The notes below the pieces were generated by a model. It did no database searches. It saw only the letters and a list, made by a program, of their open reading frames with translations, and was not told where the DNA came from. From the NCBI RefSeq assembly GCF_000687145.1, contig NZ_JMFG01000006.1, positions 62,001-126,000 of the forward strand: DNA of 64,000 nucleotides, given 5' to 3'. Source of the DNA: Thermoanaerobaculum aquaticum. Lineage in GTDB: Bacteria; Acidobacteriota; Thermoanaerobaculia; Thermoanaerobaculales; Thermoanaerobaculaceae. Of the stretch, positions 14,919-32,469 are shown one piece after another (position 1 is the first letter of the stretch; each line of letters begins with the position of its first letter). The position numbers and the translations under genes are program-made.

Positions 14919-14948
14919 CCCCAAGCCAAGTGATGCTGCTCACGGAAC

Positions 14949-15974: not shown

Positions 15975-16003
15975 TTTACGCTCGAGCGAAAATCCGCTAG
16001 ACT
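15975..16003 (+). promoter_or_regulatory. Sigma-70 promoter of the sensor kinase operon
   Basis: TTTACG (15975-15980), a 17-base spacer and TAGACT (15998-16003) lie about 45 bases upstream of the kinase ATG. The -10 matches 4 of 6 bases. The kinase-regulator pair thus seems to be made from an ordinary promoter, while its presumed targets carry sigma-54 elements. Confidence 0.5.
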
Positions 16004-16048
16004 GGTGTGGGCAGGGTGCGGGGTAAGGGGCTCCGCTTGCGGGGGGAT

Positions 16049-17569: not shown

Positions 17570-17570
17570 G

Positions 17571-18950
17571 ATGGCATTGGTCCTGCTCGTTGAAGACGAA
17601 CAGCTCCTCCGCTGGTCCATGGCCCGCTGGCTGGAGCAGGCAGGGTTTCAGGTGCACCAGGCGGGAAGCCTTGCGGAAGCCAAAGAGCACCTGCACCAGC
17701 ACTGCCCAGACATCGTGCTTTTGGACCTCGGTCTCCCCGATGGGTTCGGTCTGGACTTGATTGAAGAGGAAAAGCAAAACTTACGGGAAAGCGAAATCAT
17801 CGTGGTCACCGCTTCCGGCCACGTGGAAGACGCGGTGCGGGCCATGAAGATGGGGGCCTTTGACTTCCTCACCAAGCCGGTTTCCCAGGAAGCCCTGCTG
17901 GAGGTGGTGGAGAAGGCCAGTGCCTGGCGTCGGAGCTCCCGGGACGCCGAGGGTTTCCGGCGCCTCACGGAATCGAAAATTAAAGGCCCCCTCATTGCCC
18001 ACTCACCGGCCATGCTGCGGGTGCTGGACCAAGCTAAACAAGTGGCGGCAGCACCCACCACCGTTCTCATTCAAGGAGAAACCGGCGTGGGCAAGGAGGT
18101 GTTGGCTCGCTTTATCCACGCCAACTCCCCTCAAGCCAGCGGCCCCCTGCAAGCCATTAACTGCGCGGCCATTCCCGAGCAACTGGTGGAAAGCGAGCTT
18201 TTTGGCTATGAAAAAGGGGCGTTTACCGACGCCCGCGAAAGCCGCAAAGGGGTCTTTGAGCTTGCCGACGGCGGCACCGTCATCCTTGACGAGGTGGCGG
18301 AAATCCCCTTGGCCCTCCAGGCCAAGCTGCTGCGCTTTTTGGAAGAGCGGACTTTACGCCGACTGGGTGGAACCCGGGAAATACGGGTGGAGGTACGGGT
18401 GATCGCCATCACCAACCGCAACCTGGAGCAACGGGTGGCCGAGGGGCATTTCCGGTCCGATCTCTTTTACCGCCTCAACGTATTCCCCATTTGGGTGCCT
18501 CCCCTCAGGCAACGCCGGGAAGACATCCTGCCCCTGGCCCGCCATTTCTTGCAGAGCTTTGCCGCCCCCCTGGGCTAGCGCTTCAGCCACTTTGCCCCGC
18601 GGGTGGAAGCGGCGCTTTTAAACCACTCCTGGCCCGGCAACGTGCGGGAGCTGCGAAACCTCATGGAGCGCACCGCACTCTTGGAGGAAGGCGGAGTGGT
18701 GGTGGGCCGCGCTTTGAACTGGGGGGAAGTGGAGGCCGAGCCCGCAGCTCACAAGCCCACCGCAGAGCTGGTGCCGCTGGAAGAGCTGGAGTTTCGCGCC
18801 GTTGTGAACGCCATGCGGGCCAGCAAGGGAAACCAGTCGGAAGCCGCACGGCTTTTGCGCATCAGTCGCGATCAGCTGCGGTACCGGGTCAAGCAGTACC
18901 GGAAAGCCGGTCGCTGGCCCAAAGACCTGGAAGAGTTGGATGAAGCATGA
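17571..18950 (+). pseudogene. NtrC-type sigma-54 response regulator interrupted by an in-frame TAG
   Basis: Receiver domain (residues 1-115, phospho-acceptor aspartate in [10 protein letters not shown]), AAA+ domain with Walker A GETGVGKE near 170 and Walker B VILDEVAE, then a Fis-type helix-turn-helix at the end. The sigma-54 contact loop is GAFTDA instead of GAFTGA. Codon 336 is TAG (18576-18578), inside the AAA+ C-terminal subdomain just before RFSHFAP and WPGNVRELRN. The reading frame continues without shift to 18950. One base change (for example TAG from AAG, CAG or TGG) explains it. As written, the product lacks the DNA-binding domain; this may be a real mutation, a sequencing error or readthrough. 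It pairs with the upstream haem-c kinase. Confidence 0.88.
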
Positions 18951-18970
18951 ACCGCCCCGTACCAGGAAGC

Positions 18971-18986
18971 TGGCACAGAGCTTGCT
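18971..18986 (+). promoter_or_regulatory. Sigma-54 (-24/-12) promoter upstream of the 21-haem cytochrome gene
   Basis: TGGCAC-N5-TTGCT: the invariant GG (18972-18973) and GC (18984-18985) are separated by exactly ten bases. It lies 20 bases past the regulator gene and about 115 bases before the cytochrome start, in otherwise non-coding DNA. Confidence 0.8.
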
Positions 18987-19101
18987 TCAACGGGCGAGGG
19001 CGGTCAAGCCGCAAGCTTTGCGGCTTAACCCGGCCAAAGGGTAACTTCCAGCCCGTGCAAGGGGTTGCCCGGTGCGCACCGGAGAGAAAGGAGGGCGGAC
19101 C

Positions 19102-20823
19102 TTGGCTGTAAGGCGGTGGCTATTGGGTATTTTTCCCCAGGTGCTGCTTTTGACTTCGGTGGCGCTCCCGGTTTTGGCCAAGCAGCATCCGAGCTTGGTC
19201 AACCCTGAGACCACCCGCTGCAGCACCTGTCACCAGCTCTTCCCCCCATCCGCGCAAGCTCACCCTCCGGCGGAGAAGAAGTGCCTTACCTGCCATCGCT
19301 TTACCAAGGAAGGGGAGAAAACCCAGGTAGCCTTGGCCGCATCCCAGCCTGACCTCTGTCTTTCCTGCCACAAAGGGCTCAGCAAGCCAGCAAGCCTCAC
19401 CCTCACCGGCGCCCATCCCCCCGTGGGCGATCAGTGCACCTCCTGCCACGAACCCCACGCCAGCACGGAAAAGCACCTTTTGTCGCAAGGACCACCAAAG
19501 CTGTGCCTTTCCTGCCACGGGGAAAGAGACGTGCAGGACAAACACCCTCTGCCGGTGCTGGCAAGCTCCTGCGTGGGCTGCCACGCCCCGCACGGAAGCG
19601 ACGTGAAGGGCATGCTTCTGGGCCAGGTGCTCCACCCGCCTTTTGCCGAAAAGACCTGCCAGGCTTGCCACCGGAAGGGGTTAGGCAGCAAGGTGCTGAT
19701 GCAAAAAACCGGTGCCGCCTTGTGCTTTGCCTGCCACAGCCAGCAAGAAAAAACCTGGAGTTCCGGGACCGTGCACGGGGCGGTGCAAAAAGGCCAGTGC
19801 ACCGCCTGCCATAACCCCCACCTTTCCGCCCAACCGCACCTGGTGCGAGCCACCGGCCCAGCGTTATGCGTGGGATGCCATCAGGATGTGGGAAAGAAGC
19901 TGCAAGCCAAGACCCCGCACCCCCCGGCGCAGGAAGACTGCCTCACCTGCCACCAACCCCACCAGGCCGACCGTTCCGGCTTGCTGCAGGCTCCAGTCAA
20001 TGAACTTTGCGGCAACTGCCATGACGGAAGCGACAAGGGTTTCGCGGCCAAGCACCTGCAAGCCAAAGGGGACAAGCTGGCGTGCGTGGGCTGCCACGAC
20101 CCCCACGGCAGCCAAGGGGTGCACCTGCTGGCGGAAGGTTCCTCTCACCCGCCCTTTGCGGAGGGGAGCTGCGATGCCTGCCACGAGGGCAGCGCTCAAA
20201 AGGTCATGGAAGGCGGCAGCCGGAAGCTGTGCTTTGCCTGCCATTCGGACATGGAAGAAAACCTGGCCAAGGGGGATGTGCACGGGGCGGTGGAAGCCGG
20301 CGAGTGCGTGGCCTGTCATTCCCCCCACGCCTCGCGGCAATCTAGCCTCCTGAAAGCCACGCCCGCTTCGGTGTGCGGTGAGTGCCACCCCGATCAGCTG
20401 CCCGGACCGGGAGAAACCGCCCACGGCGTCATCAAAGTTCTGGGCTGCCAGGCCTGCCACCAGCCCCATCAGGGCAAGGACAAGCTCCTGCGGAAAGAAG
20501 GACCCGAGCTCTGCACCGCCTGCCATGTGGCCAAGGCCACGTCGGAGCTGCAGGTGACGCTGTTTGGCAAGTTCACGGTTCCTCGCGAGCAGTGGAGCCA
20601 ATGGGCGCGGCTGCGGCTTACCCCCGACGGCACCCGCAACCACCCCGTGACCGGCCACCGGGTCTTGGGCACCCCCACCGCCGCCGGGCGCAACAAAAGC
20701 AGCTTTACCGGCGAGCTTTCCTGCCTGACCTGCCATGACCCCCACAAGGGTCAAGGTCGGGCGCTCGCCCGCCAGGGGCAGGATGGCAAGCCGGTTACCT
20801 GCGAAACCTGCCACGCCAAATGA
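19102..20823 (+). CDS. 21-haem cytochrome c
   Basis: A 573-residue exported cytochrome with 21 CxxCH motifs spread evenly from CSTCH near residue 40 to the C-terminal CETCH, many followed by PH or HG as in doubled-CxxCH repeats (CTSCHEPH, CVGCHAPH, CTACHNPH, CLTCHQPH). Such arrays form haem wires across the periplasm or on the cell surface. TTG 19102 is chosen because AAAGGAGGG ends 7 bases before it and the signal peptide (LAVRRWLLGIFPQVLLLTSV) starts there; a GTG at 19072 lacks such a site. A sigma-54 promoter precedes it. The next gene (NHL lipoprotein) follows with 8 bases between stop and start. Confidence 0.92.
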   Translation: MAVRRWLLGIFPQVLLLTSVALPVLAKQHPSLVNPETTRCSTCHQLFPPSAQAHPPAEKKCLTCHRFTKEGEKTQVALAASQPDLCLSCHKGLSKPASLTLTGAHPPVGDQCTSCHEPHASTEKHLLSQGPPKLCLSCHGERDVQDKHPLPVLASSCVGCHAPHGSDVKGMLLGQVLHPPFAEKTCQACHRKGLGSKVLMQKTGAALCFACHSQQEKTWSSGTVHGAVQKGQCTACHNPHLSAQPHLVRATGPALCVGCHQDVGKKLQAKTPHPPAQEDCLTCHQPHQADRSGLLQAPVNELCGNCHDGSDKGFAAKHLQAKGDKLACVGCHDPHGSQGVHLLAEGSSHPPFAEGSCDACHEGSAQKVMEGGSRKLCFACHSDMEENLAKGDVHGAVEAGECVACHSPHASRQSSLLKATPASVCGECHPDQLPGPGETAHGVIKVLGCQACHQPHQGKDKLLRKEGPELCTACHVAKATSELQVTLFGKFTVPREQWSQWARLRLTPDGTRNHPVTGHRVLGTPTAAGRNKSSFTGELSCLTCHDPHKGQGRALARQGQDGKPVTCETCHAK

Positions 20824-20831
20824 GGGTGAAC

Positions 20832-21860
20832 ATGAAAGCCTGTTTTTTGTTGTGGGTCGCGGTTCTTTCCGCCTGTGCTTCTGCCCCTAAACAGGCCAAG
20901 ACAGAGGCCGATCCCTATGCCCGCTACGTCTGGCCCCCACCACCCGATGAAGCCAAGATCCGCCTGGTGACGATCCTTTCCGGGCGCGCCGATGTGGAAG
21001 CCGAAAGCAAATGGAAAAGAGCCCTCATTGGCGCCTCCCCCCACGCGGTTTTTGACTTCCTGCGCAAGCCCTTTGCCGCGTTGTTCGATGCTCAAGGTCG
21101 CCTGTGGGTTTCAGACCCCGGCCTGCACGCGCTGGTGCGGTTTGATCAGCAAAACCGCCGCTACGACGTGTTTGGCACCACCGGCAGCTTGCGTTTGAAG
21201 ACGCCCCTGGGCTTGGGGCTGGGACCCGACGGCACGGTGTACGTGGCCGACGCGGATCTCAAGCGGGTTTTGGCCTATGGGCCGGAGGGGGAACTGAAGA
21301 CCGCGTACGGCAAACCCGGGGAGTTGGAAAACCCCACCGATGCCGCGGTTTCCCCGGACGGCAAAAAGCTCTACGTCACCGACTCCAAAGCCCATCGCGT
21401 GGTGATCTTCGAGGCAGCGACCGGCAAAGTGGTGGGAAGCTTTGGGGAAAGGGGCTCCGGGGAAGGCCAGTTCAGCTTCCCCTCGGCGCTGTGCTTTGAC
21501 GCCGAAGGGCACCTTTTTGTGGTGGACCAAATCAACGCCCGGGTGCAGGTTTTCGACAGTGACGGGACCTTTCTGCAGGTAATTGGCGGACTGGGCGTGG
21601 GATTTGGCAACTTCGTGCGGCCCAAGGACGTGGCCGTTGACAACCAAGGCCGCCTGTACGTCAGCGACGCCGCGTTTAACAACGTGCAGATCTTCGACCG
21701 CGAGCTGCGCCTGCTCACCTTTGTGGGGGAAACCGGCGAGCAACCGGGGCAGTTCCGCATTGCTTCGGGTATTGCCGTCCGCCCGGGGGAGTTTGCGGTG
21801 GTGGACCAGTTGGGCCGCAGGGTTCAGCTCTTCCGCTACCTACCCACTACTGGGGAATGA
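20832..21860 (+). CDS. NHL-repeat beta-propeller lipoprotein
   Basis: A 342-residue lipoprotein: signal peptide with lipobox LSAC (C15), then about six NHL blades with the recurring pattern F-D-x-x-G-x-L-(Y/F/W)-V-(S/A/V)-D (for example LYVSDAAFNNVQIFD). It is probably anchored in the outer membrane. NHL proteins recur next to multihaem cytochromes in Geobacter-type extracellular electron transfer loci and are thought to scaffold or assemble them. ATG 20832 is preferred over ATG 20820, which overlaps the previous stop. It is the first of three NHL proteins in the locus. Confidence 0.85.
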   Translation: MKACFLLWVAVLSACASAPKQAKTEADPYARYVWPPPPDEAKIRLVTILSGRADVEAESKWKRALIGASPHAVFDFLRKPFAALFDAQGRLWVSDPGLHALVRFDQQNRRYDVFGTTGSLRLKTPLGLGLGPDGTVYVADADLKRVLAYGPEGELKTAYGKPGELENPTDAAVSPDGKKLYVTDSKAHRVVIFEAATGKVVGSFGERGSGEGQFSFPSALCFDAEGHLFVVDQINARVQVFDSDGTFLQVIGGLGVGFGNFVRPKDVAVDNQGRLYVSDAAFNNVQIFDRELRLLTFVGETGEQPGQFRIASGIAVRPGEFAVVDQLGRRVQLFRYLPTTGE

Positions 21861-21898
21861 AACCCACAGGGTGGGGATTTTTCCCCAGCTTCTTTTTA
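21850..21898 (+). terminator. Hairpin after the NHL gene, possible terminator
   Basis: CTGGGGAA (21850-21857) can pair with TTCCCCAG (21881-21888), followed by the T-rich tail CTTCTTTTTA. The left arm overlaps the last codons. The right half also forms GGGGATTTTTCCCC (21873-21886), which resembles the palindrome upstream of the third sigma-54 promoter, so a regulatory role is an alternative. Confidence 0.45.
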
Positions 21899-21970
21899 TC
21901 CATCCCCACCGCGCCTTGTTAACAGCTTGATTACGAGAAGATTACACAAAGCGGTGAAATCTGTATCGCT

Positions 21971-21986
21971 TGGCATTTGCTTTGCA
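21971..21986 (+). promoter_or_regulatory. Sigma-54 (-24/-12) promoter of the first filament-cytochrome operon
   Basis: TTGGCAT...TTTGCAT: GG at 21972-21973 and GC at 21984-21985, exactly ten bases apart. It lies about 55 bases before the ATG of the tetraheme gene, a typical leader length, in a region with no other gene. Confidence 0.82.
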
Positions 21987-22039
21987 TCAAATGCGACAGG
22001 GGGCTTTCCCAGAAGGGAAAGCCCAGGAAAGGAGGATGT

Positions 22040-22714
22040 ATGAAGAAAGTTTTGGTTGTCTTTGCTTCTCTTATCTTGGCGGTGGGTCTCGCCAGCGCCG
22101 CTTCCATCGTGGGCTCCAAGCACGACCTGCGGGCCTCCGGGGGCGGCACCCCCACCGGCCAAGGGTTAACGGAGGTTTGCGTGGTGTGCCACACCCCCCA
22201 CCAGGCGAGCGCTGCCAACGGCCAGTATCCACTGTGGAACCACCAGGGTACAGCTACTGCCAGCTTTGGGGTCTACAGCAGCCCCACCATGAACGCCACC
22301 CCGGCGGAAATTGGCGGGGCAGCCATGGGTTCGCAGTCGGTTTCGCTCCTGTGCATGAGCTGCCACGATGGAACGGTGTCGGTGTTGGCCATGTACAACA
22401 ATCCACCCAGCGGTGCGCCTACAGTCAATCCCATTAGCGGACGAATTGATGCCTCCGGTCGCATCATCAGCACCGCCAACATTGGCACGAACCTGACCGA
22501 TGACCATCCGGTGAACTTCACGTACAACACGGCCTTGGCCAATGCCGACGGCGGCTTGGTGGACCCAGCAACCAGCCCCACCATTCAGGGCTGGCTGGTG
22601 GCCGGGACCGTGCAGTGCGCCTCCTGCCATGACGTGCACGATCCCCAGTACACGCCGTTCCTGCGCGCTGACAACACCGGCTCGGCGCTGTGCCTCACCT
22701 GCCACATCAAGTAG
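22040..22714 (+). CDS. Tetraheme cytochrome resembling OmcE-type filament subunits
   Basis: A 224-residue exported protein, signal peptide ending GLASA, with four CxxCH sites: CVVCHTPH, CMSCHDG, CASCHDVH and a terminal CLTCHIK that ends the protein. Marker segments are IVGSKHDL at the mature N-terminus, PLWNH, YSSPTMN and DDHPVNF, which offer distal histidine ligands. Size, haem number and the neighbourhood (isomerase, barrel, NHL lipoprotein) resemble what I recall of Geobacter OmcE, a tetraheme cytochrome that polymerises into extracellular nanowires; the similarity is inferred without alignment. AAAGGAGGATGT precedes ATG 22040. A strong hairpin follows the gene, consistent with much higher expression than the rest of the operon. 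Confidence 0.85.
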   Translation: MKKVLVVFASLILAVGLASAASIVGSKHDLRASGGGTPTGQGLTEVCVVCHTPHQASAANGQYPLWNHQGTATASFGVYSSPTMNATPAEIGGAAMGSQSVSLLCMSCHDGTVSVLAMYNNPPSGAPTVNPISGRIDASGRIISTANIGTNLTDDHPVNFTYNTALANADGGLVDPATSPTIQGWLVAGTVQCASCHDVHDPQYTPFLRADNTGSALCLTCHIK

Positions 22715-22736
22715 TTTTTCGAAGGCGTAGCATGTC

Positions 22737-22768
22737 CACCGGGCGGCGGGTTTTCCCGCCGCTCGGTG
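22737..22768 (+). other. Strong intercistronic hairpin after the tetraheme gene
   Basis: CACCG-GGCGGCGGG (22737-22750) pairs with CCCGCCGC-TCGGTG (22755-22768) around a TTTT loop, 14 pairs with one mismatch. No T-run follows, so it is not a classic terminator. Such hairpins often protect an upstream mRNA segment or partially stop polymerase, giving an excess of the first gene product. Confidence 0.65.
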
Positions 22769-22781
22769 TGCTGGGGGGACC

Positions 22782-23738
22782 ATGAAACATCTGGCACTGC
22801 TCACGCTTCTGGGAACAGTAGCAACGCTGGGCGCGCAAACACCGGTGGCCCGGGTGGGGGATGTGACCATTTCCCGGGAGATTTTGGACGAAAACGTGGC
22901 CCGGGTGCTTCAGGGCCAGTACCAACACACCCGGGTGAGCGAGGAGAAACTGCAGGAGCTGCGGGTGAAAGAGCTTTCTGTCCTCATCCGCCGGCAGCTT
23001 CTGGTGGCGGGAGCCAAAGACCGGGGTCTCGCCTTGCCGCTTGCCGAAGCTCGGCTGCAGGTGGCGGCCATGGAAAAGCAGCTGGGCCCGGAGGAGTATC
23101 AAAAATCCTTAAAAGCCCGGGGCTGGACCAGAAAAGACCACGAGCGGATCCTGGCGGAAACCCTCCTCGCCGAAAAAGCCTATCAGCGCTTCATCCTTAA
23201 CCCGTCGGCTGTCAGTGAGGAGGAAATCGCGGCCTTTTTCAAAGCTAACCCAGAGCGTTTCCAGTGGCCCGAAGCGTTGCGCGTCCAGCATATTCTCCTC
23301 AAGGTTTCCGCTACCGCCGACGCCAAGACCTGGGAAAAACGCGAGCAAGAAGCAAAGGACCTCGTTGCCCGCCTGCAACGGGGGGAAGATTTCGCCACCT
23401 TGGCTTCCCAGCTTTCCGATGACCCTTACCGGGTCAAGGGCGGGGATTTGGGCTGGGTGCACCGCGGGCGCCTGGTGGAACCGCTGGAAACCGCAGTGTG
23501 GACCGCCCGGGTGGGACAGCTTCTAGGACCTGTGCGCTCCTCCGAAGGGTTTCACGTGGTCAGGGTGCTGGAGCGGCGGCTTGCCCGGCCCATGACGCTT
23601 GATGAAGCGCGGCCCCTCATTCAGCGGGAGCTTGGGGAAAAGAAGAGGCTTGAAGCGGAAAAGCGCTTCTTTGCCGAAGTGAAGAGCCGTCACGCCGTGG
23701 TGATCCTGGATTCCAGCTTGGCCCATGCGGCACCTTAA
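22782..23738 (+). CDS. Parvulin-type peptidyl-prolyl isomerase (PpiC/SurA-like), exported
   Basis: A 318-residue protein with a signal peptide (residues 1-18), a SurA-N-like helical region (about 25-145) and one parvulin domain (about 165-265; RVQHILLKVSATAD, FATLASQLSDDPY, GGDLGWVHRGRLVEPLE, GFHVVRVLERR). It catalyses cis-trans proline isomerisation or acts as a periplasmic chaperone for outer-membrane or extracellular proteins. Its place between the filament-like cytochrome and the barrel suggests a dedicated assembly chaperone. It overlaps the barrel gene by 14 bases. Confidence 0.92.
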   Translation: MKHLALLTLLGTVATLGAQTPVARVGDVTISREILDENVARVLQGQYQHTRVSEEKLQELRVKELSVLIRRQLLVAGAKDRGLALPLAEARLQVAAMEKQLGPEEYQKSLKARGWTRKDHERILAETLLAEKAYQRFILNPSAVSEEEIAAFFKANPERFQWPEALRVQHILLKVSATADAKTWEKREQEAKDLVARLQRGEDFATLASQLSDDPYRVKGGDLGWVHRGRLVEPLETAVWTARVGQLLGPVRSSEGFHVVRVLERRLARPMTLDEARPLIQRELGEKKRLEAEKRFFAEVKSRHAVVILDSSLAHAAP

Positions 23739-25488
23739 GCTTTTCCTAATTTGCTTCTTGTTCGCTGCTCCGGCTTTGGCCCAGCAGTTCGGCCAGTGGA
23801 GCTGGCAGGCCAACGTGCGCGCCGGGGGTCGGAGCTACGAGAACACCTCCCAGGGCCAGGTCCTTTCCCAGTACCAGGAGCAGGTCCTGGGTTTGGCCTT
23901 CAACCTTAACGGTTTTTTGGTCCACCCAGCCATTGCCCGCTTCAACCTGGGGCTAGACCTGGTCTTTTCCCGCTACCCCAAGGGCATGGCGGTGGACAAC
24001 AACCGCACGGGCTTTTCCCTGCGCTTGGGTTTGCTTCCGGAAAGCGCCTATCCCCTCGAGCTGTTTGCCTCCCGCTCGCGGTTTGACTACCAGGGTTTGG
24101 CGGATTTGCCCGCCTTTACCTTTGCCGGCACACCCGAGCAAACCACCAGCTGGGGCGGGCGCTTGCGCTTTCGCCACGGACTCCTGGCCGGTGCCCTCTT
24201 GGGCTTTGACGCATCCACCATCCGCTTTTTGGAAGGAAGCAAGACCCAAGACGAAAAGCGGGCGTTTTTCGATTGGAGCGGCAGCGGCCAACGCCTGCAG
24301 CACCATCTGCGCTTGGACCACCAGGACCGCAGCTACGGTGTGCTGGGTTTGAGGTACCGGGACGTTACGGCTACCTGGGATTCCCACGGGAACTTTACGC
24401 CCACCACCCGCTGGGACCTTTCCCTTTCCGGTCTGCAACGGGAGTTTGGCCGCGGTGGAAGCTCGTACGTTCAAAGCTCGCTTCGCCAAAACCTCACCCA
24501 TCAAACCCCGTCGTCCTGGGTTTTGTCGGCCTTTTACGCCGGAGGTTTTGCCCAAAGCGAGGGGAGCGAAGCGTCGGTGACCCATGACCTGTCCTTAAGG
24601 GCACAAAGGAGCTTTACGGGCGGCTTTGACCTGGGCGTTGACGTGGGTGCCGCTCGTCAGCAAGCCGGGGATTACTCCACCCAGGCGCCCCGCTTGGGGT
24701 TGACCGCCAGTTACCAAAGGCAGGGGAAGCTGGGGCAGCTTGCCCTTTCGGCAGCTACCGCTCTGGGACGCCTCACCCAAGAAGGCCCCGACCAACGCGC
24801 CACCAGCTCCTACGCCAGCACCTCCGCCGGGCTTACCCTGCGTTCGGGATCGCCCCAGGTCCTGCAAGGGGAGCTGGAGCTTGCTTACGCCAAGAACAAG
24901 CTGCGGCAAGCGGCCGAAGACGTGGGTCCACAACCGGAACCCCAGGCGCTTTTGGCTTTGGGTACTGAGGACAACCGACGGGCGCGGCTCACCCTCCGCC
25001 GAAACTTGGGTGCTGTGCAGCTTTCCGCCTTTTCCGACTGGTGGCAGCGGGAAACCACCCCCACTTGGAACCTCCCTCGACTGGAAAGCAAAACCCTTAC
25101 CCACACCCTGCAGGCGGGCTTCCCTGTGGGGAACCTGGCCATCAACGTGGGCCAAAGCCAGTACTTCGCGGTGCGTAAACAAGAACTCGCCTACTTTTCC
25201 GGGGTTTTGTCGCTGCGCCCTTTCCATTTCCTGGGGCTCACCCTGAGCCACCGGCAAGACCGCCGTCGCCTTCCCGGCGAGCCTTGGTTAGACTCCAAGC
25301 GGCAGGAAGTGGCGATGACGGGGTATCTGGGCGCGTACCAACTGCAACTGCGGCTGTACTGGCTTGAGGACCGCTGGAACCTTGGCGCGCCGCGCGAGGA
25401 TCGGGGCTTAACCTGGACGGTTTCCCGGAGCATGGGCGGGTGGTTGCCCATCATCACCGCTCCGGTTCGCCGGGGGGTGATCCGGTGA
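23725..25488 (+). CDS. Outer-membrane beta-barrel protein of the cytochrome locus
   Basis: A 587-residue protein with a signal peptide (ending APALAQQ) and a long series of alternating amphipathic strands with aromatic ends (for example GLRYRDVTATWDSHG, WVLSAFYAGGF, YQLQLRLYWLEDRW), typical of a barrel of 20 or more strands. I do not recognise a named family. In this setting it could be the channel through which cytochromes leave the cell or a sheath for an embedded cytochrome. It ends in VIR rather than the usual aromatic residue, which is odd. It overlaps both neighbours, so it is tightly coupled. Confidence 0.75.
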   Translation: MRHLKLFLICFLFAAPALAQQFGQWSWQANVRAGGRSYENTSQGQVLSQYQEQVLGLAFNLNGFLVHPAIARFNLGLDLVFSRYPKGMAVDNNRTGFSLRLGLLPESAYPLELFASRSRFDYQGLADLPAFTFAGTPEQTTSWGGRLRFRHGLLAGALLGFDASTIRFLEGSKTQDEKRAFFDWSGSGQRLQHHLRLDHQDRSYGVLGLRYRDVTATWDSHGNFTPTTRWDLSLSGLQREFGRGGSSYVQSSLRQNLTHQTPSSWVLSAFYAGGFAQSEGSEASVTHDLSLRAQRSFTGGFDLGVDVGAARQQAGDYSTQAPRLGLTASYQRQGKLGQLALSAATALGRLTQEGPDQRATSSYASTSAGLTLRSGSPQVLQGELELAYAKNKLRQAAEDVGPQPEPQALLALGTEDNRRARLTLRRNLGAVQLSAFSDWWQRETTPTWNLPRLESKTLTHTLQAGFPVGNLAINVGQSQYFAVRKQELAYFSGVLSLRPFHFLGLTLSHRQDRRRLPGEPWLDSKRQEVAMTGYLGAYQLQLRLYWLEDRWNLGAPREDRGLTWTVSRSMGGWLPIITAPVRRGVIR

Positions 25489-26435
25489 GGAAGGCCCTGG
25501 CCCTGGCTGCAGCGTGGGCGGCCGCCAGCTGCGGCACCACCCCAACTGCGGTTCCCAAGCTCATTTGGTCCAGCCCTTCGCCCAGGGTGGAGCTGGTTTC
25601 GGTCATGCAAACCACCGCCGACATCCCCATGCCGTGGCTGCGCCGCATGGTGGGCTCGGGGGCTGAGGCGCTTTTCGTGCGCCCCTACGGTGTAGCCTGG
25701 CTGGGCGAAGATTTGCTGGTGGTGGATTCCGGGGCACGGAGGGTTTTGCGGTTTGCTGCAGGTTCACTGCTGCGCTCGCCGGAAGGTGTGTTTGCCGAGC
25801 CTCTCTTTGCGGCCGCCATCCCAAGCGGCGTTGCGGTGAGCGACCCCCCGGCCGGCAAGGTGGTGCTTTTGGACGAAGCTTTGCGTCCTCAATCGGTTTT
25901 GGCCGAAGGCTTACAGCGCCCCACCGGTTTGGCCTGGGTGGGGGGCGGGCTTTGGGTGGCCGAAACCACAGCCCATCAGCTGCGCTGCCTGGGCCCTGTT
26001 TGCCCCCGGCCCACCTTGGGCCAGCGCGGAGTCGGCCAAGGCGAGCTCAACTTCCCCACCGCTTTAGCCGCCTCCGGCACCACCCTCTGGGTGGCGGACA
26101 CCTTGAACTTCCGCATTCAGGCGTTTGACATCAACTCCGGGGAGGTGACGGCAGTTGTTGGCGGGCTCGGGGACAGCCCCGGCAGCACCCCCCGCGCCAA
26201 GGGTTTGGCGGTAGATGGGGAAGGTCAGCTTTGGGTGAGCGATGGCGTGTTGAACCAGGTAAGCGTGTTTTCGCCCGCGGGTCACCTGTTAACCTGTTTG
26301 GGGGGAGAAACGGCTTCCCAGCCCCTGTTTTCCATGCCCGCCGGCATCGCTGCCCGCGGGCGAGAAATTGCGGTGGCCGATGCGCTGGCTCGGCGCATCG
26401 TGGTGTTTCGCGTAAAGGCCCAGGAGGGACCGTGA
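25485..26435 (+). CDS. NHL-type beta-propeller lipoprotein
   Basis: A 316-residue protein starting at GTG 25485 (GTGA overlap with the barrel stop). The signal peptide carries the lipobox AAASC (C17), so it is probably an outer-membrane lipoprotein. Five to six degenerate NHL blades follow (LLVVDSGARRVLRF, LWVADTLNFRIQAFD, LWVSDGVLNQVSVF). Blades are shorter and less regular than in the first NHL protein. It is followed by a second small tetraheme protein, again with GTGA overlap. Confidence 0.82.
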   Translation: MRKALALAAAWAAASCGTTPTAVPKLIWSSPSPRVELVSVMQTTADIPMPWLRRMVGSGAEALFVRPYGVAWLGEDLLVVDSGARRVLRFAAGSLLRSPEGVFAEPLFAAAIPSGVAVSDPPAGKVVLLDEALRPQSVLAEGLQRPTGLAWVGGGLWVAETTAHQLRCLGPVCPRPTLGQRGVGQGELNFPTALAASGTTLWVADTLNFRIQAFDINSGEVTAVVGGLGDSPGSTPRAKGLAVDGEGQLWVSDGVLNQVSVFSPAGHLLTCLGGETASQPLFSMPAGIAARGREIAVADALARRIVVFRVKAQEGP

Positions 26436-27067
26436 AGCTTGCCACCTGCTTCCTGCTTCTGGCTTCGGGTTGCTGGGCGCAAGGCACCAGCGTGGTGCAT
26501 ACCGTGCATAACCTCTCGGCCTTTGGACCCGGCGAAGTGAAGGTCCTGGGCGAAAAGGAGGTGTGCAAGTTCTGCCATGTCCCCCACTCCGCCACCGTGT
26601 CCGCACCCCTGTGGGGGCGGCCGGTGCCCCAGGGGCAATTCCGGGTTCCGGAGGTTTCCGCAGGACGCGGCAAGGCCCCGGCCCCGCAACCGGACGGGGC
26701 CTCCCGCTTGTGCCTTTCCTGCCACGACGGCAGCGTGGCCCAGGGCTTTTCCCCGGCGGCCAAGACCTTGAAGGCTTTCTCGGTTGGAGGTTTGCGGGAA
26801 AAGGGAGACCTCTCCGGAAGCCACCCGGTTTCGATTCCTTTGCCCGAAAGCTCACTCGATCCTGACGACGAGCGGGATATGGGCGTGAAGGCCCAGGCGG
26901 TGATTGCCGCCGATCCCACCGTGCGCTTGGACAAGGACGGGAAGCTCCAATGCACCACCTGCCACGACCCCCACGCCGATCCTTACTACCAACCCGGTGT
27001 GGTTCCCCACTTTTGGGTGCGACCCACCGTGGATGAGGTGTGCCTGGCATGCCACGAGCTGCGGTAA
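26432..27067 (+). CDS. Small tetraheme cytochrome, divergent paralogue of the filament-like subunit
   Basis: A 211-residue exported protein, start GTG 26432 after CAGGAGGGACC. Four CxxCH motifs: CKFCHVPH, CLSCHDGS, CTTCHDPH and the C-terminal CLACHELR. The layout follows that of the tetraheme gene at 22040: an early C-x-F-C-H-x-P-H, a mid CHDG, a (S/D)HP segment, a CHDPH, and a haem site at the very end. The N-terminus SVVHTVHNL parallels SIVGSKHDL. It may cap, initiate or mix with the main filament-like subunit. The last 19 bases overlap the next cytochrome gene. Confidence 0.85.
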   Translation: MKLATCFLLLASGCWAQGTSVVHTVHNLSAFGPGEVKVLGEKEVCKFCHVPHSATVSAPLWGRPVPQGQFRVPEVSAGRGKAPAPQPDGASRLCLSCHDGSVAQGFSPAAKTLKAFSVGGLREKGDLSGSHPVSIPLPESSLDPDDERDMGVKAQAVIAADPTVRLDKDGKLQCTTCHDPHADPYYQPGVVPHFWVRPTVDEVCLACHELR

Positions 27068-28155
27068 TCGCCGCGCTCTGGTTCGCCTCCTGGCCGGCTT
27101 TGGCGGCGCCGGGGGCCGGGCACGTGGACCGCTCCCAGCTGCCGGCCGGCTGCCTCACCTGCCACCAGGGCCATGGCCAGAGCAACTCGCCCATGCTCCG
27201 GGTACCGCAGCAGGAGCTTTGCCTCACCTGTCACGGTGGACAGGGAGCGCGGCAGGAGGCGATCCGACGTGGGCTTTTGAAGCCAACTGCCAATCCGGCG
27301 GATATTTCCCGGGCCTTGCTTTTGCCCTACCAGCACCCGATGGACCCCCTGGCCACCTCCAGCCGCCAGGGGGTGACCTGTACCTCCTGTCACGCGCCCC
27401 ACCGCGGGGCAACGGTCAATCCTTCCGGTGGCAAGAAGCTTTCCCCCCAAAACCCCCGGAAGTTTGAGTTTGAGCTTTGCGAGAGCTGCCACGGTTTCCA
27501 AGGGGCCCTCACCCAAAGCCTCGCCGATATTTCCCGCTACTTCGACTACCCCAGCCAGTCCTTTCACCCGGTTCACCGGCCCAGCAGCAACCGCTCGCCT
27601 TCGCTCCGCCCCGGCCTTTCGGGGAAGGAAATCAACTGCACGGATTGCCACGGAAGTGACGCCCCTCAAGGCCCCAAAGGGCCCCACGGGTCTTCCACCC
27701 GGTTTTTGCTGCGCGCTCCCTACACCACTACCGACGGTCAGGGGGAAAGCCCCGAAGCCTACGCCCTGTGCTACCGCTGCCACCAGCGGGAAAAGGTGCT
27801 TTCGCCCCAATCGCCCTTTCCCTACCATCAAAAGCACGTGGTGGACGAGCGCGCTTCCTGCGCCACCTGTCACAACGGCCACGGCTCCCCTAACAACCGG
27901 GCGTTAATTCGCTTTGGCGAGGAAACTACCTTGGCCGGTGTGGCCCCGGCCGCTTCCGGTCGCCTGCAGTTCCTTTCCACCGGCCCCGGGCAGGGCAGCT
28001 GCTTCCTCACCTGCCACGGGAAAAACCACGATCCCTTAAGCTACGGACCCGGCAATCCGCCCCCACCGCCAGGGACCCTGGGCCATTCACCTGGGAAATT
28101 CTCCCCACCTTCCCCACCGGGGTTGGGGATTAATCCCCATCTCCGGCCCCGCTGA
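27049..28155 (+). CDS. Octahaem cytochrome c with one CX3CH site
   Basis: A 368-residue exported protein, signal peptide ending PALAAPG. Seven CxxCH motifs (CLTCH twice, CTSCH, CESCH, CTDCH, CYRCH, CATCH) plus CFLTCH, a CX3CH variant, near residue 325. The tail is proline-rich (PPPPPGTLGH), perhaps a flexible linker. ATG 27049 is favoured over GTG 27040 because the signal peptide then starts cleanly (MPRAAVIAALWF). It is the last gene of the unit begun at 22040. A sigma-54 promoter for the next unit begins just after its stop. Confidence 0.88.
   Translation: MPRAAVIAALWFASWPALAAPGAGHVDRSQLPAGCLTCHQGHGQSNSPMLRVPQQELCLTCHGGQGARQEAIRRGLLKPTANPADISRALLLPYQHPMDPLATSSRQGVTCTSCHAPHRGATVNPSGGKKLSPQNPRKFEFELCESCHGFQGALTQSLADISRYFDYPSQSFHPVHRPSSNRSPSLRPGLSGKEINCTDCHGSDAPQGPKGPHGSSTRFLLRAPYTTTDGQGESPEAYALCYRCHQREKVLSPQSPFPYHQKHVVDERASCATCHNGHGSPNNRALIRFGEETTLAGVAPAASGRLQFLSTGPGQGSCFLTCHGKNHDPLSYGPGNPPPPPGTLGHSPGKFSPPSPPGLGINPHLRPR
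28125..28138. promoter_or_regulatory. Perfect palindrome GGGGATTAATCCCC upstream of a sigma-54 promoter
   Basis: A 14-base perfect palindrome 42 bases before the -24 GG of the third sigma-54 element, inside the 3' end of the octahaem gene. A near copy, GGGGATTTTTCCCC, stands at 21873-21886 upstream of the second sigma-54 element. It is a candidate enhancer or operator; there is no such copy before the 18971 promoter. Confidence 0.4.
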
Positions 28156-28178
28156 AGCACCGACACCCTGGCGTAGCA

Positions 28179-28195
28179 AGGCACGGGGTTTGCTT
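28179..28195 (+). promoter_or_regulatory. Sigma-54 (-24/-12) promoter of the second filament-cytochrome operon
   Basis: AGGCACG-GGGT-TTGCTT: GG at 28180-28181 and GC at 28192-28193, ten bases apart, a near-perfect match to the consensus. It is about 25 bases upstream of the ATG at 28219, so the leader would be short. Confidence 0.78.
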
Positions 28196-28218
28196 GCGCC
28201 CCAAAGGGGGTGCTGGCT

Positions 28219-28935
28219 ATGCGCATGTCGAAAAATCAAGCGATGACCCTCCTCGCGTTGTTCCTCTTCCTCTTGGATCCCATGGTGACCTATCCCCCCT
28301 GGAGTGCCAGCATCGTAGGCTCCAAACATGACCTTTCCACAAACTGGGACCCCTACTCCACCCAGGTGTGCGCCTTTTGTCACACGCCTCACTTTGCCAA
28401 CCCCTCACTTCCCATTCAGGCTCCCCTGTGGAACCGTTCGGTGGATTTGGACAAGGTTTTTCAACCCTACTCCAGCCCCACCATGAACACCACACCCGGA
28501 AACCCCCAAACCACCGTTTCCATGCTGTGCTTGGGTTGCCACGACGGAACGGTAGGCTGGGAGGTCATCCGTGGCTACAACGTTTCCGACAAACACGACC
28601 TCATCAATGCCCCAGGGCCCGGAGGCATCCCCGACACCACGTCATGGCCTAACTGTCAGCGCTGCCATCCCGAGTACTACGGCGACCCACCGGCTTTTTG
28701 GCAAGGCACCGACCTCAGGGACGACCACCCCATCGCCATCGTCTACCCCACCGCCGCCCAGGACCCCAAGTTCAACCTCCCACCGGACCTCAGCAACGGG
28801 TGGAGCGACGTGAAGCTGTACTCAGGGCGGGTGGAGTGCCCCACCTGCCATCAGGTTCACGATCCGGGAATCCCCCCGTTTATGCGCAAGTCAAACCAGG
28901 GTAGCGCCCTATGTTTGACGTGTCACATCAAGTAA
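28219..28935 (+). CDS. Pentaheme cytochrome, paralogue of the filament-like subunit
   Basis: A 238-residue exported protein whose mature part starts SIVGSKHDLS, matching the tetraheme protein at 22040. CxxCH motifs: CAFCHTPH, CLGCHDG, an extra CQRCH, CPTCHQVH and the terminal CLTCHIK. YSSPTMN, LCxxCHDGTV, DDHP and GSALCLTCHIK are shared almost word for word with the first subunit, so the two are duplicates and this one gained a haem through an inserted segment of about 45 residues. ATG 28219 follows GGGGG at 8 bases. The signal region is long (about 35 residues) with a second ATG at 28225. Confidence 0.87.
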   Translation: MRMSKNQAMTLLALFLFLLDPMVTYPPWSASIVGSKHDLSTNWDPYSTQVCAFCHTPHFANPSLPIQAPLWNRSVDLDKVFQPYSSPTMNTTPGNPQTTVSMLCLGCHDGTVGWEVIRGYNVSDKHDLINAPGPGGIPDTTSWPNCQRCHPEYYGDPPAFWQGTDLRDDHPIAIVYPTAAQDPKFNLPPDLSNGWSDVKLYSGRVECPTCHQVHDPGIPPFMRKSNQGSALCLTCHIK

Positions 28936-28946
28936 GGAGGCGTTCT

Positions 28947-30272
28947 ATGCGCGCCAAGACTATTTTTTGGCGCATCAAAAAGCTTGGCCTCACGGAAGCA
29001 ATTGCCGTCGCCACGCTTGCATCGCAAGTTGCGATGGTTGGGCTTTTCCCCACGCCCGGGCTGGCACAAACCTGCAGTTCCCGGGGAACGCCCACGGTCC
29101 CTGCCCCCCAGGTGACCTACCTTCGTTTTCTAGCCGTCACCGCCACACCCCAAGCCCTGGCCACCGATGCCAGCGGGCGGCTGTTCGTTGCCGATGCGAA
29201 AGCCGGGGTGGTGGAGGTGCGGGACCGTTACGGACGGCTGGAAACCCGTTGGACCGGGCTGCAACAACCCGTGGCGGTAGCGGCCGATGACGAAGGGCGA
29301 GTTTTCGTGGCCGAGACCGAGCCCGGTGCCGTAAGGATTTTCGACCTCGCGGGCATTCGCCCGGTGAGCTACTTAGGGCGAGGAGAGGGTGAGTTTGCCC
29401 TGCCTACCGCCATCTCCGTGGCTCCCCAGGCCAAGCTGGTGTTCGTAGCCGATGGCGGCGAGCACGCGGTGAAGGTGTACAGCCCCACCGGCGGCTGGAT
29501 CAAAACCATTGGCGGCCCTGGAACCACCGCCGGGCGCTTTTTCTTTCCCGCCGGCCTGGCGGTCAACACCCGTAACGAGCTTTTGGTGGTAGACCAGGGC
29601 AACGCGCGCGTGCAAGTTTTTGACTTCGACGGCAACTTCCTCCGTTGCTTTGGCCGCGCCGGCGGCATGGGCACCAGCCGCCTCTTGGTGCGAGCCAACG
29701 GCCTTGTGGCCGACACCTTAGACCGGGTTTTCCTCGTGGACAGCTTCCAAGACCTGGTGCGGGTCTTTGATCCTGCGGGCCCCACGCTTTCCACCGTGGG
29801 AACCTTTGGCGAGGGTCCCGGCCAGCTCTTCACCCCCGTGGGTCTCGCCCTAGACCCCTTAAACCGGCTCTTCGTGGCTTCCCCAAACACCGGCAAAGTT
29901 GAGGTCTTTGGGTTGGACAGCTTCCAGGACCCCCATGTGGTGGCGGCTCAGGTGAGCGCCGATCCAGACACCGTGCCAGTAAGCCGCCGGCTTTTGACGG
30001 TGTGGCTCGCCATCACGCCGCTGGAGCGCGACGCCCGGGATCTGGACCCGGCAACCCTTCGCCTCAGCGGCACCGCACCCATCGTTCTCAACAGCAAGCT
30101 CGAAGCTAACGCGCAAGGCCTGTGGACCCTGCGGGTTCTGGTGCAGTTCGCCCCCAAGCCCCAGGACGTTGTGGGTAGCGAACTGCGAATTCCCGTGAGC
30201 CTGGAGTTCCGCGACGGGGTCCCGGTGGAGGGCATGGTCATCCTCAAGCAAGGCCCGGGAGGTAAGCAATGA
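28947..30272 (+). CDS. Secreted NHL beta-propeller protein with C-terminal beta domain
   Basis: A 441-residue protein. The signal peptide is preceded by a basic 20-residue n-region and ends GLAQT. Residues 60-320 form six NHL blades (LFVADAKAGVVEVRD, VFVADGGEHAVKVY, LLVVDQGNARVQVFD, VFLVDSFQDLVRVFD, LFVASPNTGKVEVFG). Residues 330-441 form a haem-free, beta-rich domain. Unlike the other two NHL proteins it shows no lipobox. AAGGAGG precedes ATG 28947. It lies between the pentaheme subunit and the 14-haem cytochrome and overlaps the latter by ATGA. Confidence 0.85.
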   Translation: MRAKTIFWRIKKLGLTEAIAVATLASQVAMVGLFPTPGLAQTCSSRGTPTVPAPQVTYLRFLAVTATPQALATDASGRLFVADAKAGVVEVRDRYGRLETRWTGLQQPVAVAADDEGRVFVAETEPGAVRIFDLAGIRPVSYLGRGEGEFALPTAISVAPQAKLVFVADGGEHAVKVYSPTGGWIKTIGGPGTTAGRFFFPAGLAVNTRNELLVVDQGNARVQVFDFDGNFLRCFGRAGGMGTSRLLVRANGLVADTLDRVFLVDSFQDLVRVFDPAGPTLSTVGTFGEGPGQLFTPVGLALDPLNRLFVASPNTGKVEVFGLDSFQDPHVVAAQVSADPDTVPVSRRLLTVWLAITPLERDARDLDPATLRLSGTAPIVLNSKLEANAQGLWTLRVLVQFAPKPQDVVGSELRIPVSLEFRDGVPVEGMVILKQGPGGKQ

Positions 30273-32395
30273 AGCGCGCATCGTGGTTGGTTTTCTTGGT
30301 TCCTTTCCTGGCCTGGGCGGCGGACCCGCCCCACGATTGGCCCACCGCTGGCCTCACCTGCACCGACTGCCACACCCCCCACACCGCGCCCGGGGGCACC
30401 CTCACTTCCACCTCCGGAAACGCCAACTTGTGCTTGAGCTGCCACGTCATTGGCGGCCTCGCCAACAGCCACCCCTTTTACCTCACGGACCAAGCGTTCC
30501 CCTGGCCCGGCCTGCGCTCTGGACAAACGCCCAGCGGCACCTCTCACCGTTGGGATTCCTCGGCAGTGGGGCACGTGAAACCTGGGACCACCAACACCTC
30601 CACGGGCACGGTGGTTTCCGGAGGCACCTACACCGGCCGCTACCCGAAGACCTACACCATTTCCATCACCCAGAGCGGGGATGTGGGGGTGGCGCGGTTT
30701 TCCTGGAGCGCCACCAGCCCACCGGGGGGCAGCGGCAGCAACCTGCTCACCGGCACCAACGTGGCCTTGGACGAAGGCATTACGGTCACCTTCAAACCTG
30801 GCACCACCTCTCCCGCCTTTGTGGCCGGGGACGTGTTTTACCTTTACGTTCGCCCTGACCTCCGCAACCCTACCCTCACTTCGGTACTCCAGCGGCTGGA
30901 AAACGGGCGGCTTACCTGTTCCGCCTGCCACGATCAGCACAGCCAAGCCGCCGAACCTTTCGATCCCCAGGCCCCCGCTTATGCCGGTTCCGGCACCGGC
31001 AATGGCCGGCACTACCAGCGCACCGCCAACAACGTGGCGCAAATCTGCGAGGACTGCCACGCGGCCCGGACCGTAACCCTTTCCTCCCAGGGCTCCCATC
31101 CGGTGGCGGTGTCTGTCCCCACAACCAGTAGCTTCAAGCAACCCACGCAGCTTCCCTTGGACAAGACCACCGGCAAGGTGCGGTGCCTTACCTGCCACAG
31201 GGTGCACTACGCGCCCGCCAACGACGGTGCAGTCTTGCGGCTGACCTCGCATAAGGCGCTGTGCCAGGACTGCCACGTGAAAAGCCCCAGCGGCAGCAAC
31301 CCGATTCACGCCTCCACCACTAACGGGGTTCTATGGCCCGGAGGCCAGTACGGCAGCACCCTGCCTGCCCGGCCCGATGCCAGCCAGCGGGGCGCCTGCA
31401 CCCAGTGCCACGCGGTTCACGGCTGGCCCAACAACGCCTCGCCCAGTACGGACTACAACTGGCTTTTGGCCGACGCTGAAGAAAACCTCTGCTTTACCTG
31501 CCACGATGGGGCTCCGGTGGCTGTCAACGTGCGTGGTGACTTCCTGAAGACCTACAAACACCCGGCCACCAGCTACTCGGGCCGCCATCAGCCCAACGAA
31601 AGCGCTTCCTCGGCTTTCGGAACCAGCAACCGCCACGCGGAATGCACTGACTGCCACAACCCTCACCAGGCTGAAGGCCCCAGCTCCGGTTCTGCGCCTC
31701 CCACCATCTCGGCGCTGCTCAAAGGCGCGTCTGGGGTGGCGGTCACCAACGGCGCCGCCGGCACCACTCCCACCTACACGTTCCTCACCTCGGCCCAGTA
31801 CGAGTACCAGGTGTGCTTCAAGTGCCACTCCAGCTGGACCAGCCAGCCTTCGGGGCAAACCAACCTGGCGCTTAAGCTAAACCCCAACAACCCCTCGTAC
31901 CACCCGGTGGAAGCTGTGGGAAAAAACACCGGGATTAACGCCAACGCCTTCGTCAACGGCTGGTCAAGCTCCAGCCTTACCTACTGTTCCAGTTGCCACG
32001 GCAGCGATGGGACCGTTCGTGGCGTGCACGGTTCGGCAAACCAGTACATCCTCAAGCGGCCATTTAGCCCTTCGTCGGCTCAGCGCACCATGAGCTCCAA
32101 CGACCTGTGTTTCCTGTGCCACCGGTACGACACCTACGCCAACGACGGCGCCACCACAACCGTCAAGGGCTACAGCCGGTTCAATCCCCCAACATTTACC
32201 AAGGGCCACACCTTCCACGTAGGGAACAGGCGGTATCCCTGCAGCGCCTGCCACGAAACCCATGGGTCCACAACCCGCCCGCACCTCATCGTCACCGGCC
32301 GCAGCCCGGGCCTTACCAACTACACCCATAGTTCTAACGGTGGCACCTGTTACCCCACCTGCCACGGCAGCAAGACTTACACGGTCAACTACTAG
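30269..32395 (+). CDS. 14-haem cytochrome c with inserted beta domain and a CX3CH site
   Basis: A 708-residue exported cytochrome (signal peptide ending LAWAA). Thirteen CxxCH motifs plus a C-terminal CYPTCH (CX3CH). Between the second and third haem (about residues 100-195) is a Thr/Gly/Ser-rich insert with the pattern GGTYTGRYPKTYTISI and NVALDEGITVTF, which looks like a small beta-sandwich and recalls inserts seen in other large surface cytochromes. Several haems are followed by H-x-x-H ligands (CSACHDQH, CLTCHRVH). Size and insert suggest a surface-exposed terminal reductase or filament base. A terminator follows 44 bases later. Confidence 0.88.
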   Translation: MKRASWLVFLVPFLAWAADPPHDWPTAGLTCTDCHTPHTAPGGTLTSTSGNANLCLSCHVIGGLANSHPFYLTDQAFPWPGLRSGQTPSGTSHRWDSSAVGHVKPGTTNTSTGTVVSGGTYTGRYPKTYTISITQSGDVGVARFSWSATSPPGGSGSNLLTGTNVALDEGITVTFKPGTTSPAFVAGDVFYLYVRPDLRNPTLTSVLQRLENGRLTCSACHDQHSQAAEPFDPQAPAYAGSGTGNGRHYQRTANNVAQICEDCHAARTVTLSSQGSHPVAVSVPTTSSFKQPTQLPLDKTTGKVRCLTCHRVHYAPANDGAVLRLTSHKALCQDCHVKSPSGSNPIHASTTNGVLWPGGQYGSTLPARPDASQRGACTQCHAVHGWPNNASPSTDYNWLLADAEENLCFTCHDGAPVAVNVRGDFLKTYKHPATSYSGRHQPNESASSAFGTSNRHAECTDCHNPHQAEGPSSGSAPPTISALLKGASGVAVTNGAAGTTPTYTFLTSAQYEYQVCFKCHSSWTSQPSGQTNLALKLNPNNPSYHPVEAVGKNTGINANAFVNGWSSSSLTYCSSCHGSDGTVRGVHGSANQYILKRPFSPSSAQRTMSSNDLCFLCHRYDTYANDGATTTVKGYSRFNPPTFTKGHTFHVGNRRYPCSACHETHGSTTRPHLIVTGRSPGLTNYTHSSNGGTCYPTCHGSKTYTVNY

Positions 32396-32438
32396 TGGCA
32401 GTACCCCCGCGGGCTGCCTGCCCGCACCCCCCTTGGCC

Positions 32439-32469
32439 CACCCCCCCTCCGCGGGGGGTGAGCTTTTTT
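32439..32469 (+). terminator. Rho-independent terminator of the cytochrome locus
   Basis: CACCCCCC (32439-32446) pairs perfectly with GGGGGGTG (32453-32460) around a six-base loop, followed by AGCTTTTTT. It ends the plus-strand cytochrome unit and lies directly before the tRNA gene, whose -10-like TAAAAT is at 32472-32477. Confidence 0.88.

Follow-up and report, generated by a model that had tools for sequence, protein, structure and literature searches.

We analysed 64,000 nucleotides of Thermoanaerobaculum aquaticum DNA (the window; assembly GCF_000687145.1, contig NZ_JMFG01000006.1, positions 62,001 to 126,000 of the forward strand), which carries a cluster of multihaem cytochrome genes that includes three relatives of OmcE, the nanowire cytochrome of Geobacter sulfurreducens. 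In window coordinates, eleven + strand genes lie within 19072-32395, overlapping or separated by short gaps, and a sensor kinase and a σ54 response regulator (16007-18950) are assigned to the same locus by synteny and by the boundaries of an insertion/deletion at 15850 and 32466. All the genes named in the original prediction, which had placed a locus for extracellular cytochrome filaments at 18971-32395, are present on the + strand where it had put them. Its haem counts of 4, 4, 5, 21, 8 and 14 agree with a count by script once two CxxxCH motifs are included, and Pfam agrees on its three NHL proteins and its parvulin. The start it gave, 18971, is the first base of a perfect σ54 promoter match, but the unit extends further upstream to the kinase and regulator. 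The features of the locus are listed below.

15850-32466, strand not applicable: segment absent from a genome of the same genus, G034, which has 62 bp there (junction comparison)
16007-17569, + strand: sensor histidine kinase (HisKA and HATPase_c in Pfam); the true start may instead be ATG 16049
17571-18950, + strand: NtrC-type σ54 response regulator with an in-frame TAG (Pfam; orthologues)
18971-18985, + strand: σ54 -24/-12 promoter-like site, perfect TGGCAC-N5-TTGC, 5' of the 21-haem gene
19102-20823, + strand: 21-haem cytochrome (open reading frame (ORF) 19072-20823; better ribosome-binding site at TTG 19102)
20820-21860, + strand: NHL beta-propeller 1 (NHL1), lipobox LSAC (Pfam NHL 4.8e-23; 4-base overlap with the 21-haem gene)
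21971-21985, + strand: σ54 promoter-like site, one mismatch, 5' of the OmcE_A operon
22040-22714, + strand: OmcE_A, tetrahaem OmcE-family cytochrome, likely filament subunit (7TFS match, distal His)
22782-23738, + strand: SurA/PpiC-like parvulin prolyl isomerase with signal peptide (Pfam Rotamase_3 8.7e-24, SurA_N_3)
23725-25488, + strand: predicted outer-membrane barrel of about 28 long strands, MtrB-like fold (AlphaFold2 model, fold searches)
25485-26435, + strand: NHL beta-propeller 2 (NHL2), lipobox AASC (Pfam 1.7e-15; ORF from 25440; GTG 25485 overlaps the barrel stop)
26432-27067, + strand: OmcE_B, divergent tetrahaem paralogue, GTG start 26432 (7TFS match; orthologous clade)
27049-28155, + strand: 8-haem cytochrome, 7 CxxCH and 1 CxxxCH (motif count; orthologues)
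28179-28193, + strand: σ54 promoter-like site, one mismatch, 5' of OmcE_C
28219-28935, + strand: OmcE_C, pentahaem paralogue (7TFS match; insert; tree)
28947-30272, + strand: NHL beta-propeller 3 (NHL3) (Pfam 4e-20; ORF from 28911; better ribosome-binding site at ATG 28947)
30269-32395, + strand: 14-haem cytochrome, 13 CxxCH and 1 CxxxCH (motif count)
32439-32460, + strand: terminator-like hairpin at the end of the locus (8 pairs, 7 of them G-C, then T6), with a tRNA-Thr gene downstream

OmcE-family cytochromes of the locus

The three small cytochromes, whose signal peptides were recognised by eye, contain four (OmcE_A), four (OmcE_B) and five (OmcE_C) CxxCH motifs. All three match the OmcE structure 7TFS far beyond chance, as the original prediction had led us to expect, with E-values of 9.9e-38 for OmcE_A, which aligns with it end to end, 1.1e-22 for OmcE_C and 1.5e-13 for OmcE_B. 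The motifs said to be shared by the three (IVGSKHDL, YSSPTMN, CHDGTV and a terminal CLTCHIK) are complete in OmcE_A and OmcE_C, but OmcE_B has variants only (SVVHTVHNL, CHDGSV and C-terminal CLACHELR) and lacks YSSPTMN. A second solved relative in the family is PDB 9YUQ, an entry of 16 chains under the label 'putative multiheme cytochrome c', of which our literature search found no mention.

When OmcE_A, OmcE_B and OmcE_C are aligned with 7TFS and 9YUQ, exactly four His residues outside the CxxCH motifs are invariant, namely H29 (KHDL), H55 (CHTPH), H157 (DHP) and H201 (CHDVH), and these are retained in 118, 109, 120 and 120, respectively, of 120 family members. A tetrahaem protein with bis-His ligation requires four distal ligands. 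In OmcE, one distal His is supplied by the adjacent subunit (PMC12954529), and since all four are kept here, each of the three proteins would retain the ligand set of the polymer, whichever His is shared. Full-length homology and the retention of every CxxCH and distal His thus support the assignment of all three to the OmcE family. OmcE_C is a predicted five-haem variant of this tetrahaem family, in which an insert between haems 2 and 3, containing a second KHDL and a CQRCH, provides haem 5; five-haem proteins are frequent in this family, the additional haem occupying more than one position among them. In a phylogenetic tree whose bootstrap support is not fully settled, OmcE_A groups with acidobacterial and Nitrospirota counterparts, OmcE_B forms a clade with the OmcE_B proteins of two related loci, L042 and L043 (support 100/100), and OmcE_C is sister to a pentahaem protein of Rubrivivax (100/99). 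A role of OmcE_B as a lipoprotein anchor was considered and dropped, as its lipobox-like ASGC occurs in the window copy only and is missing in the orthologues.

The small proteins might also be soluble or surface-bound monomeric carriers that have the OmcE fold without polymerising, in which case the locus would encode a periplasm-to-surface relay only. A protein closely homologous to a nanowire protein need not itself polymerise, and both OmcE_B and OmcE_C have diverged, the latter with an additional haem. However, every distal ligand is retained, including whichever one crosses the subunit interface in OmcE, and the alignment of OmcE_A with 7TFS leaves out neither end; we consider monomeric carriers unlikely. 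Polymerisation is the reading that we favour: OmcE_A, and probably OmcE_C, would assemble head to tail at the cell surface as Geobacter OmcE does, to judge from the full-length homology and the haem ligands.

The 21-haem cytochrome, the barrel and their partners

The 21-haem protein, in which all 21 motifs are CxxCH and the first 19 haems are spaced 20-29 residues apart, matches the 26-haem cytochrome of an OmcS nanowire cassette in a Geobacter genome (L184) with 365.6 bits, compared with a maximum of 116 bits in ten shuffles that kept every CxxCH and His. On sequence comparison the two proteins are homologous, a relationship that is new here. The L184 cassette contains OmcS, an NHL protein, 16-haem and 26-haem cytochromes, a 590-residue peptidyl-prolyl isomerase (PPIase) and a 761-residue putative barrel, and its OmcS gene encodes a true OmcS (6ef8 match at 4.8e-98); by comparison, none of the six cytochromes of the window locus matches 6EF8, and the locus has no hexahaem gene. 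Among solved structures the 21-haem protein matches only 6r2q_A (8.6e-14, where a shuffle attains 8.9e-5), which we take to be MtrA, the molecule label in the structure file being an evident misnomer. Against the DmsE/MtrA decahaem model TIGR03508 it scores 188.4 bits (shuffle control 96.4), below the curated cut-off of 192.2, and two of its orthologues score above it, at 215.6 and 209.7 bits. The 8-haem cytochrome has orthologues at the equivalent position in the related loci L041-L043 and L052.

Other partners also have counterparts in the OmcS cassette. NHL1 matches the NHL propeller of L184 (9e-20), and the 318-residue parvulin aligns with the C-terminal half of the 590-residue PPIase (hhalign probability 96, E 1.9e-9), although PPIases are a broad family and therefore a weak marker of membership in such a cassette; two Geobacter PPIase neighbourhoods (L154 and L155) contain no cytochromes. 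The chaperone that the original prediction had called dedicated is a SurA/PpiC-like protein encoded within the OmcE_A operon, and its gene keeps its place next to OmcE in other phyla (it adjoins OmcE in L041, L042, L045, L052 and L098). The lipobox of NHL2 is also found in L041 and L042.

The AlphaFold2 model of the barrel, made with eight relatives, has a predicted local distance difference test score (pLDDT) of 84.9 and about 28 long strands. Its best match in both fold searches is the electron-conduit porin MtrB, 6r2q_B (Foldseek, 1.6e-8; VIA, Z 17.4, 438 residues aligned, root-mean-square deviation 7.1, template modelling (TM) score 0.48), and ushers and LptD are also among its fold matches. 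The barrel had been predicted to serve in secretion, and it might indeed form a dedicated OmcE secretion pore, fed by the parvulin as periplasmic chaperone, as has been proposed of the channel-like osc proteins for OmcS. Its gene lies directly 3' of those for OmcE_A and the parvulin and neighbours OmcE in several phyla, and the matches to ushers and LptD point the same way, as does the Geobacter block GSU2493-2500, which PMC12977616, citing Shen et al. 2025, ties to OmcS nanowire maturation and secretion. Against this, MtrB tops both searches, the match of the 21-haem partner is to MtrA, which belongs to the MtrB complex, and no homology with the 761-residue protein of the OmcS cassette was detected with hhalign. 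Because the closest fold is MtrB rather than a secretin or usher, and because the partner is DmsE/MtrA-like, an electron conduit is the likelier function; a secretion pore is a minority possibility in our judgement, and 'secretion barrel' is not the best description. That the modelled barrel stands nearest to MtrB is likewise new here. The MtrB and MtrA matches both point to a porin-cytochrome conduit; as the barrel does not match the MtrB_PioB family (PF11854), we would say that the pair may work like MtrAB and not that it is MtrAB.

Promoter sites, regulator and distribution

Three σ54-type sites fall within four intergenic gaps of the locus that total 421 bases, where 0.027 would be expected. 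Over the whole window 11 such sites occur where 8.3 would be expected, which is not remarkable; the argument for σ54 control therefore depends on position and conservation. The site at 18971 has perfect counterparts in L041 (6343) and L042 (6221), directly after the regulator gene, and that at 21971 has perfect counterparts in L041 (9916) and L042 (9918), directly before OmcE_A. The 21-haem operon and the OmcE operons have predicted σ54 promoters exactly 5' of them, and such promoters are seen again in relatives, which is new here; no σ70-type promoters were found within the locus. The kinase carries a periplasmic CxxCH (CRRCH), and its L041 and L042 orthologues, which are encoded at the equivalent place, keep this motif; its conservation suggests a haem-based redox input. 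One sensor apparently turns on the genes of the locus together. The regulator is interrupted by a TAG at 18576-18578, with the receiver and AAA+ domains on its 5' side and the end of the AAA+ lid and a Fis-type helix-turn-helix on its 3' side; its orthologues in L041 and L042 are open over 453 codons.

In a scan of a species-level set of 84,980 genomes, OmcE relatives are encoded at at least 555 places. The 78 loci that we kept span Acidobacteriota, Nitrospirota, Bacteroidota, Calditrichota, Verrucomicrobiota, Pseudomonadota, Thermodesulfobacteriota, Bacillota and others, and NHL and large multihaem genes accompany the OmcE relatives in most of them. Occurrence outside Geobacter, which the original prediction had offered as a novelty, is thus no novelty; such cytochrome nanowires are reportedly ubiquitous, to go by the title of a paper by Baquero et al. 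from 2023, which the wide distribution fits. The acidobacterial lineage that it had proposed is borne out, the nearest loci being those of Acidobacteriota/Thermoanaerobaculia. The order kinase-regulator-21-haem-NHL-OmcE_A-PPIase-barrel-NHL-OmcE_B-8-haem is repeated in the acidobacterial metagenome-assembled genomes of L041, where the NHL and OmcE_B frames overlap, and L042. The Thermoanaerobaculia locus L043 keeps it from the 21-haem gene onward, without the PPIase, and partial order is seen in L052 and L045 (Nitrospirota) and L098 (Holophagae). The barrel is conserved beside OmcE in several phyla, and the OmcE_C-NHL3-14-haem block is an extra module not seen in any of these six loci.

Within the genus, G034 has a clean empty site, again new here, in which 62 bp replace 15850-32466 and both flanks and the tRNA are collinear. 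This presence/absence of 16.6 kb, just upstream of an intact tRNA-Thr, was located by comparison with 3930-3991 of L175 (contig C39 of G034). Of 148 genomes of the class, 15 encode the barrel. It was not found in the other sampled members of the bacterial family, nor was full-length OmcE in the other 16 family genomes searched. Gain by transfer and repeated loss are both possible. Insertion by a tyrosine recombinase at the tRNA-Thr was rejected, as the tRNA gene is undamaged in both genomes and stands clear of the segment, and no att repeat was seen at the junction. Foreign base composition was rejected too: the GC content of the locus (61-66%) is similar to that of its surroundings and gives no sign of recent transfer. 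The broken regulator, the clean absence in G034 and the lack of barrel and full-length OmcE in the other family genomes could also mean that the locus is a decaying island, recently acquired or partly lost and perhaps not expressed. We think this distinctly unlikely, as across 13 kb none of the eleven structural genes is interrupted, most of them keep synteny with relatives, and the promoter sites are intact.

Electron transfer and related cassettes

Taken with its homologues, the locus is probably an extracellular electron transfer island, built around OmcE-type nanowires plus a conduit, and the OmcE counterpart of the Geobacter OmcS cassette. Its task is likely the respiration of an external acceptor, and T. 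aquaticum, a cultured member of its class, reduces Fe(III), according to PMC6137239, which cites Losey 2013. We read it as a variant of known nanowire and porin-cytochrome cassettes, in which the packaging with relatives of the OmcS machinery is the informative feature. The complete, self-contained system first proposed is not supported: the locus contains neither an inner-membrane quinol oxidase nor a recognised secretion system, NapC/NirT-like proteins are encoded elsewhere in the genome, and by itself the locus is incomplete.

We envisage that the sensor kinase with its c-haem motif and the σ54 activator would switch on the three operons. To judge from homology and fold, the 21-haem cytochrome would serve as a long periplasmic or trans-envelope wire, delivering electrons as far as the MtrB-like barrel or through it. 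Filament, conduit and electron acceptor would probably be linked by OmcE_B together with the two cytochromes of 8 and 14 haems, the parvulin would assist the folding of proline-rich, haem-loaded subunits, and the NHL lipoproteins may cap, anchor or shape the filament.

Several points weigh against this picture. Filaments have been observed for only some members of the OmcE family, the divergent OmcE_B may not polymerise, and in vivo conduction by cytochrome filaments is disputed (PMC11077965). AlphaFold applied to the 21-haem protein with five orthologues gave a pLDDT of 34 and no usable shape. The barrel has no match in Pfam at all, MtrB_PioB included, and its similarity to MtrB, as modelled, is one of fold only, and of a fold common to many barrels (TM score 0.48). 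Its comparison with the putative Geobacter barrel detected no homology (hhalign probability 1.7), with a comparison profile of 2 rows and among barrels, which diverge fast. Finally, the in-frame stop in the regulator may leave the system mis-regulated, or the base may be a sequencing error.

The nearest known systems share parts with the locus and differ from it in others. The locus resembles the OmcE nanowire of G. sulfurreducens (7TFS) in its full-length homology, four CxxCH, four distal His, N-terminal KHDL and C-terminal CxxCHxK, but it has three paralogues, one of them pentahaem, as candidate filament subunits. With the OmcS cassette (osc/oet, in the GSU2493-2504 region, to which L184 is homologous) it shares a long 21/26-haem cytochrome, PPIase, NHL, a barrel candidate and a nanowire gene; unlike that cassette, its subunit is of OmcE rather than OmcS type, 8- and 14-haem cytochromes replace the 16-haem partner, the PPIase has 318 rather than 590 residues, and the barrels lack detectable homology. 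Shen et al. reportedly describe OscH as a PPIase chaperone, OscEFG as channel-like and OscD as a beta-propeller.

An operon of four parts that the OmcS cassette also has (propeller, 16-haem, 26-haem and PPIase) is known from bacterial partners of anaerobic methanotrophic (ANME) archaea (PMC5539420), and Murali et al. proposed that every cytochrome filament works together with a porin-cytochrome conduit, with OetABI as a conduit model (PMC10553843). The window locus fits this filament-plus-conduit model, having the same kinds of parts and the same logic, but belongs to a different phylum and has OmcE-type subunits and an attached σ54/haem-kinase module. The MtrAB conduit (6R2Q) is suggested by both the barrel fold and the DmsE/MtrA-like protein, whereas the locus has 21 haems instead of 10, about 28 strands, no MtrB_PioB match and no recognised MtrC-like outer cytochrome. 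A multihaem locus of Geoalkalibacter ferrihydriticus encodes MtoA, two NHL proteins and a homologue of OmcE, and likewise brings together an MtrA/MtoA-like cytochrome, an OmcE relative and NHL; a parvulin, a 21-haem wire and σ54 control are not described there (PMC12016550).

Relatively little is known about the assembly and regulation of cytochrome filaments (PMC12307469), and how they are built and connected to the cell is an open question on which the locus bears. The presence of OmcE-type subunits beside OmcS-cassette relatives and an MtrB-like barrel suggests a dock common to unrelated filaments. More specifically, and tentatively, since we hold it to be possible rather than probable, the 21/26-haem wire, parvulin, propellers and barrel might form an interchangeable dock for the two unrelated nanowires OmcS and OmcE. 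Here it would take the form of a plug-in with a haem-sensing σ54 switch and an envelope-spanning 21-haem wire in or under the MtrB-like barrel, and the three OmcE-type subunits might be the shaft, the base and a pentahaem tip or branch of one filament. The locus offers a compact gene set, with promoters, for testing this shared-dock idea.

Two further loci show partial resemblance. In a Geobacter genome, beside lon/clpX, L136 (5248-10560) carries PPIase, NHL, OmcE-like tetrahaem, 8-haem and 3-haem genes, a half-cluster akin to the PPIase to NHL-OmcE_B-8-haem block of the window, without a recognised barrel. L137 (Desulfobacteraceae; 6755-18023) carries an OmcE tetrahaem/pentahaem pair, NHL, 5-haem, barrel-like, NHL and 11-haem genes, with a PPIase gene on the opposite strand; its 657-residue barrel-like protein weakly matches the profile of the window barrel.

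Elsewhere in the window, three adjacent large ORFs without a Pfam or NCBIfam match lie beside the cluster on the - strand (34088-38711). Upstream, 12365-13537 encodes a 390-residue protein, also without a match in either collection, in which a single N-terminal CxxCH (FSCSTCHAPFPRL) is followed by a porin-like stretch, a layout that by eye resembles the fused haem-porin of Cyc2. It adjoins a multihaem cytochrome gene (10975-12345) whose product is weakly ExtKL-like (52 bits).

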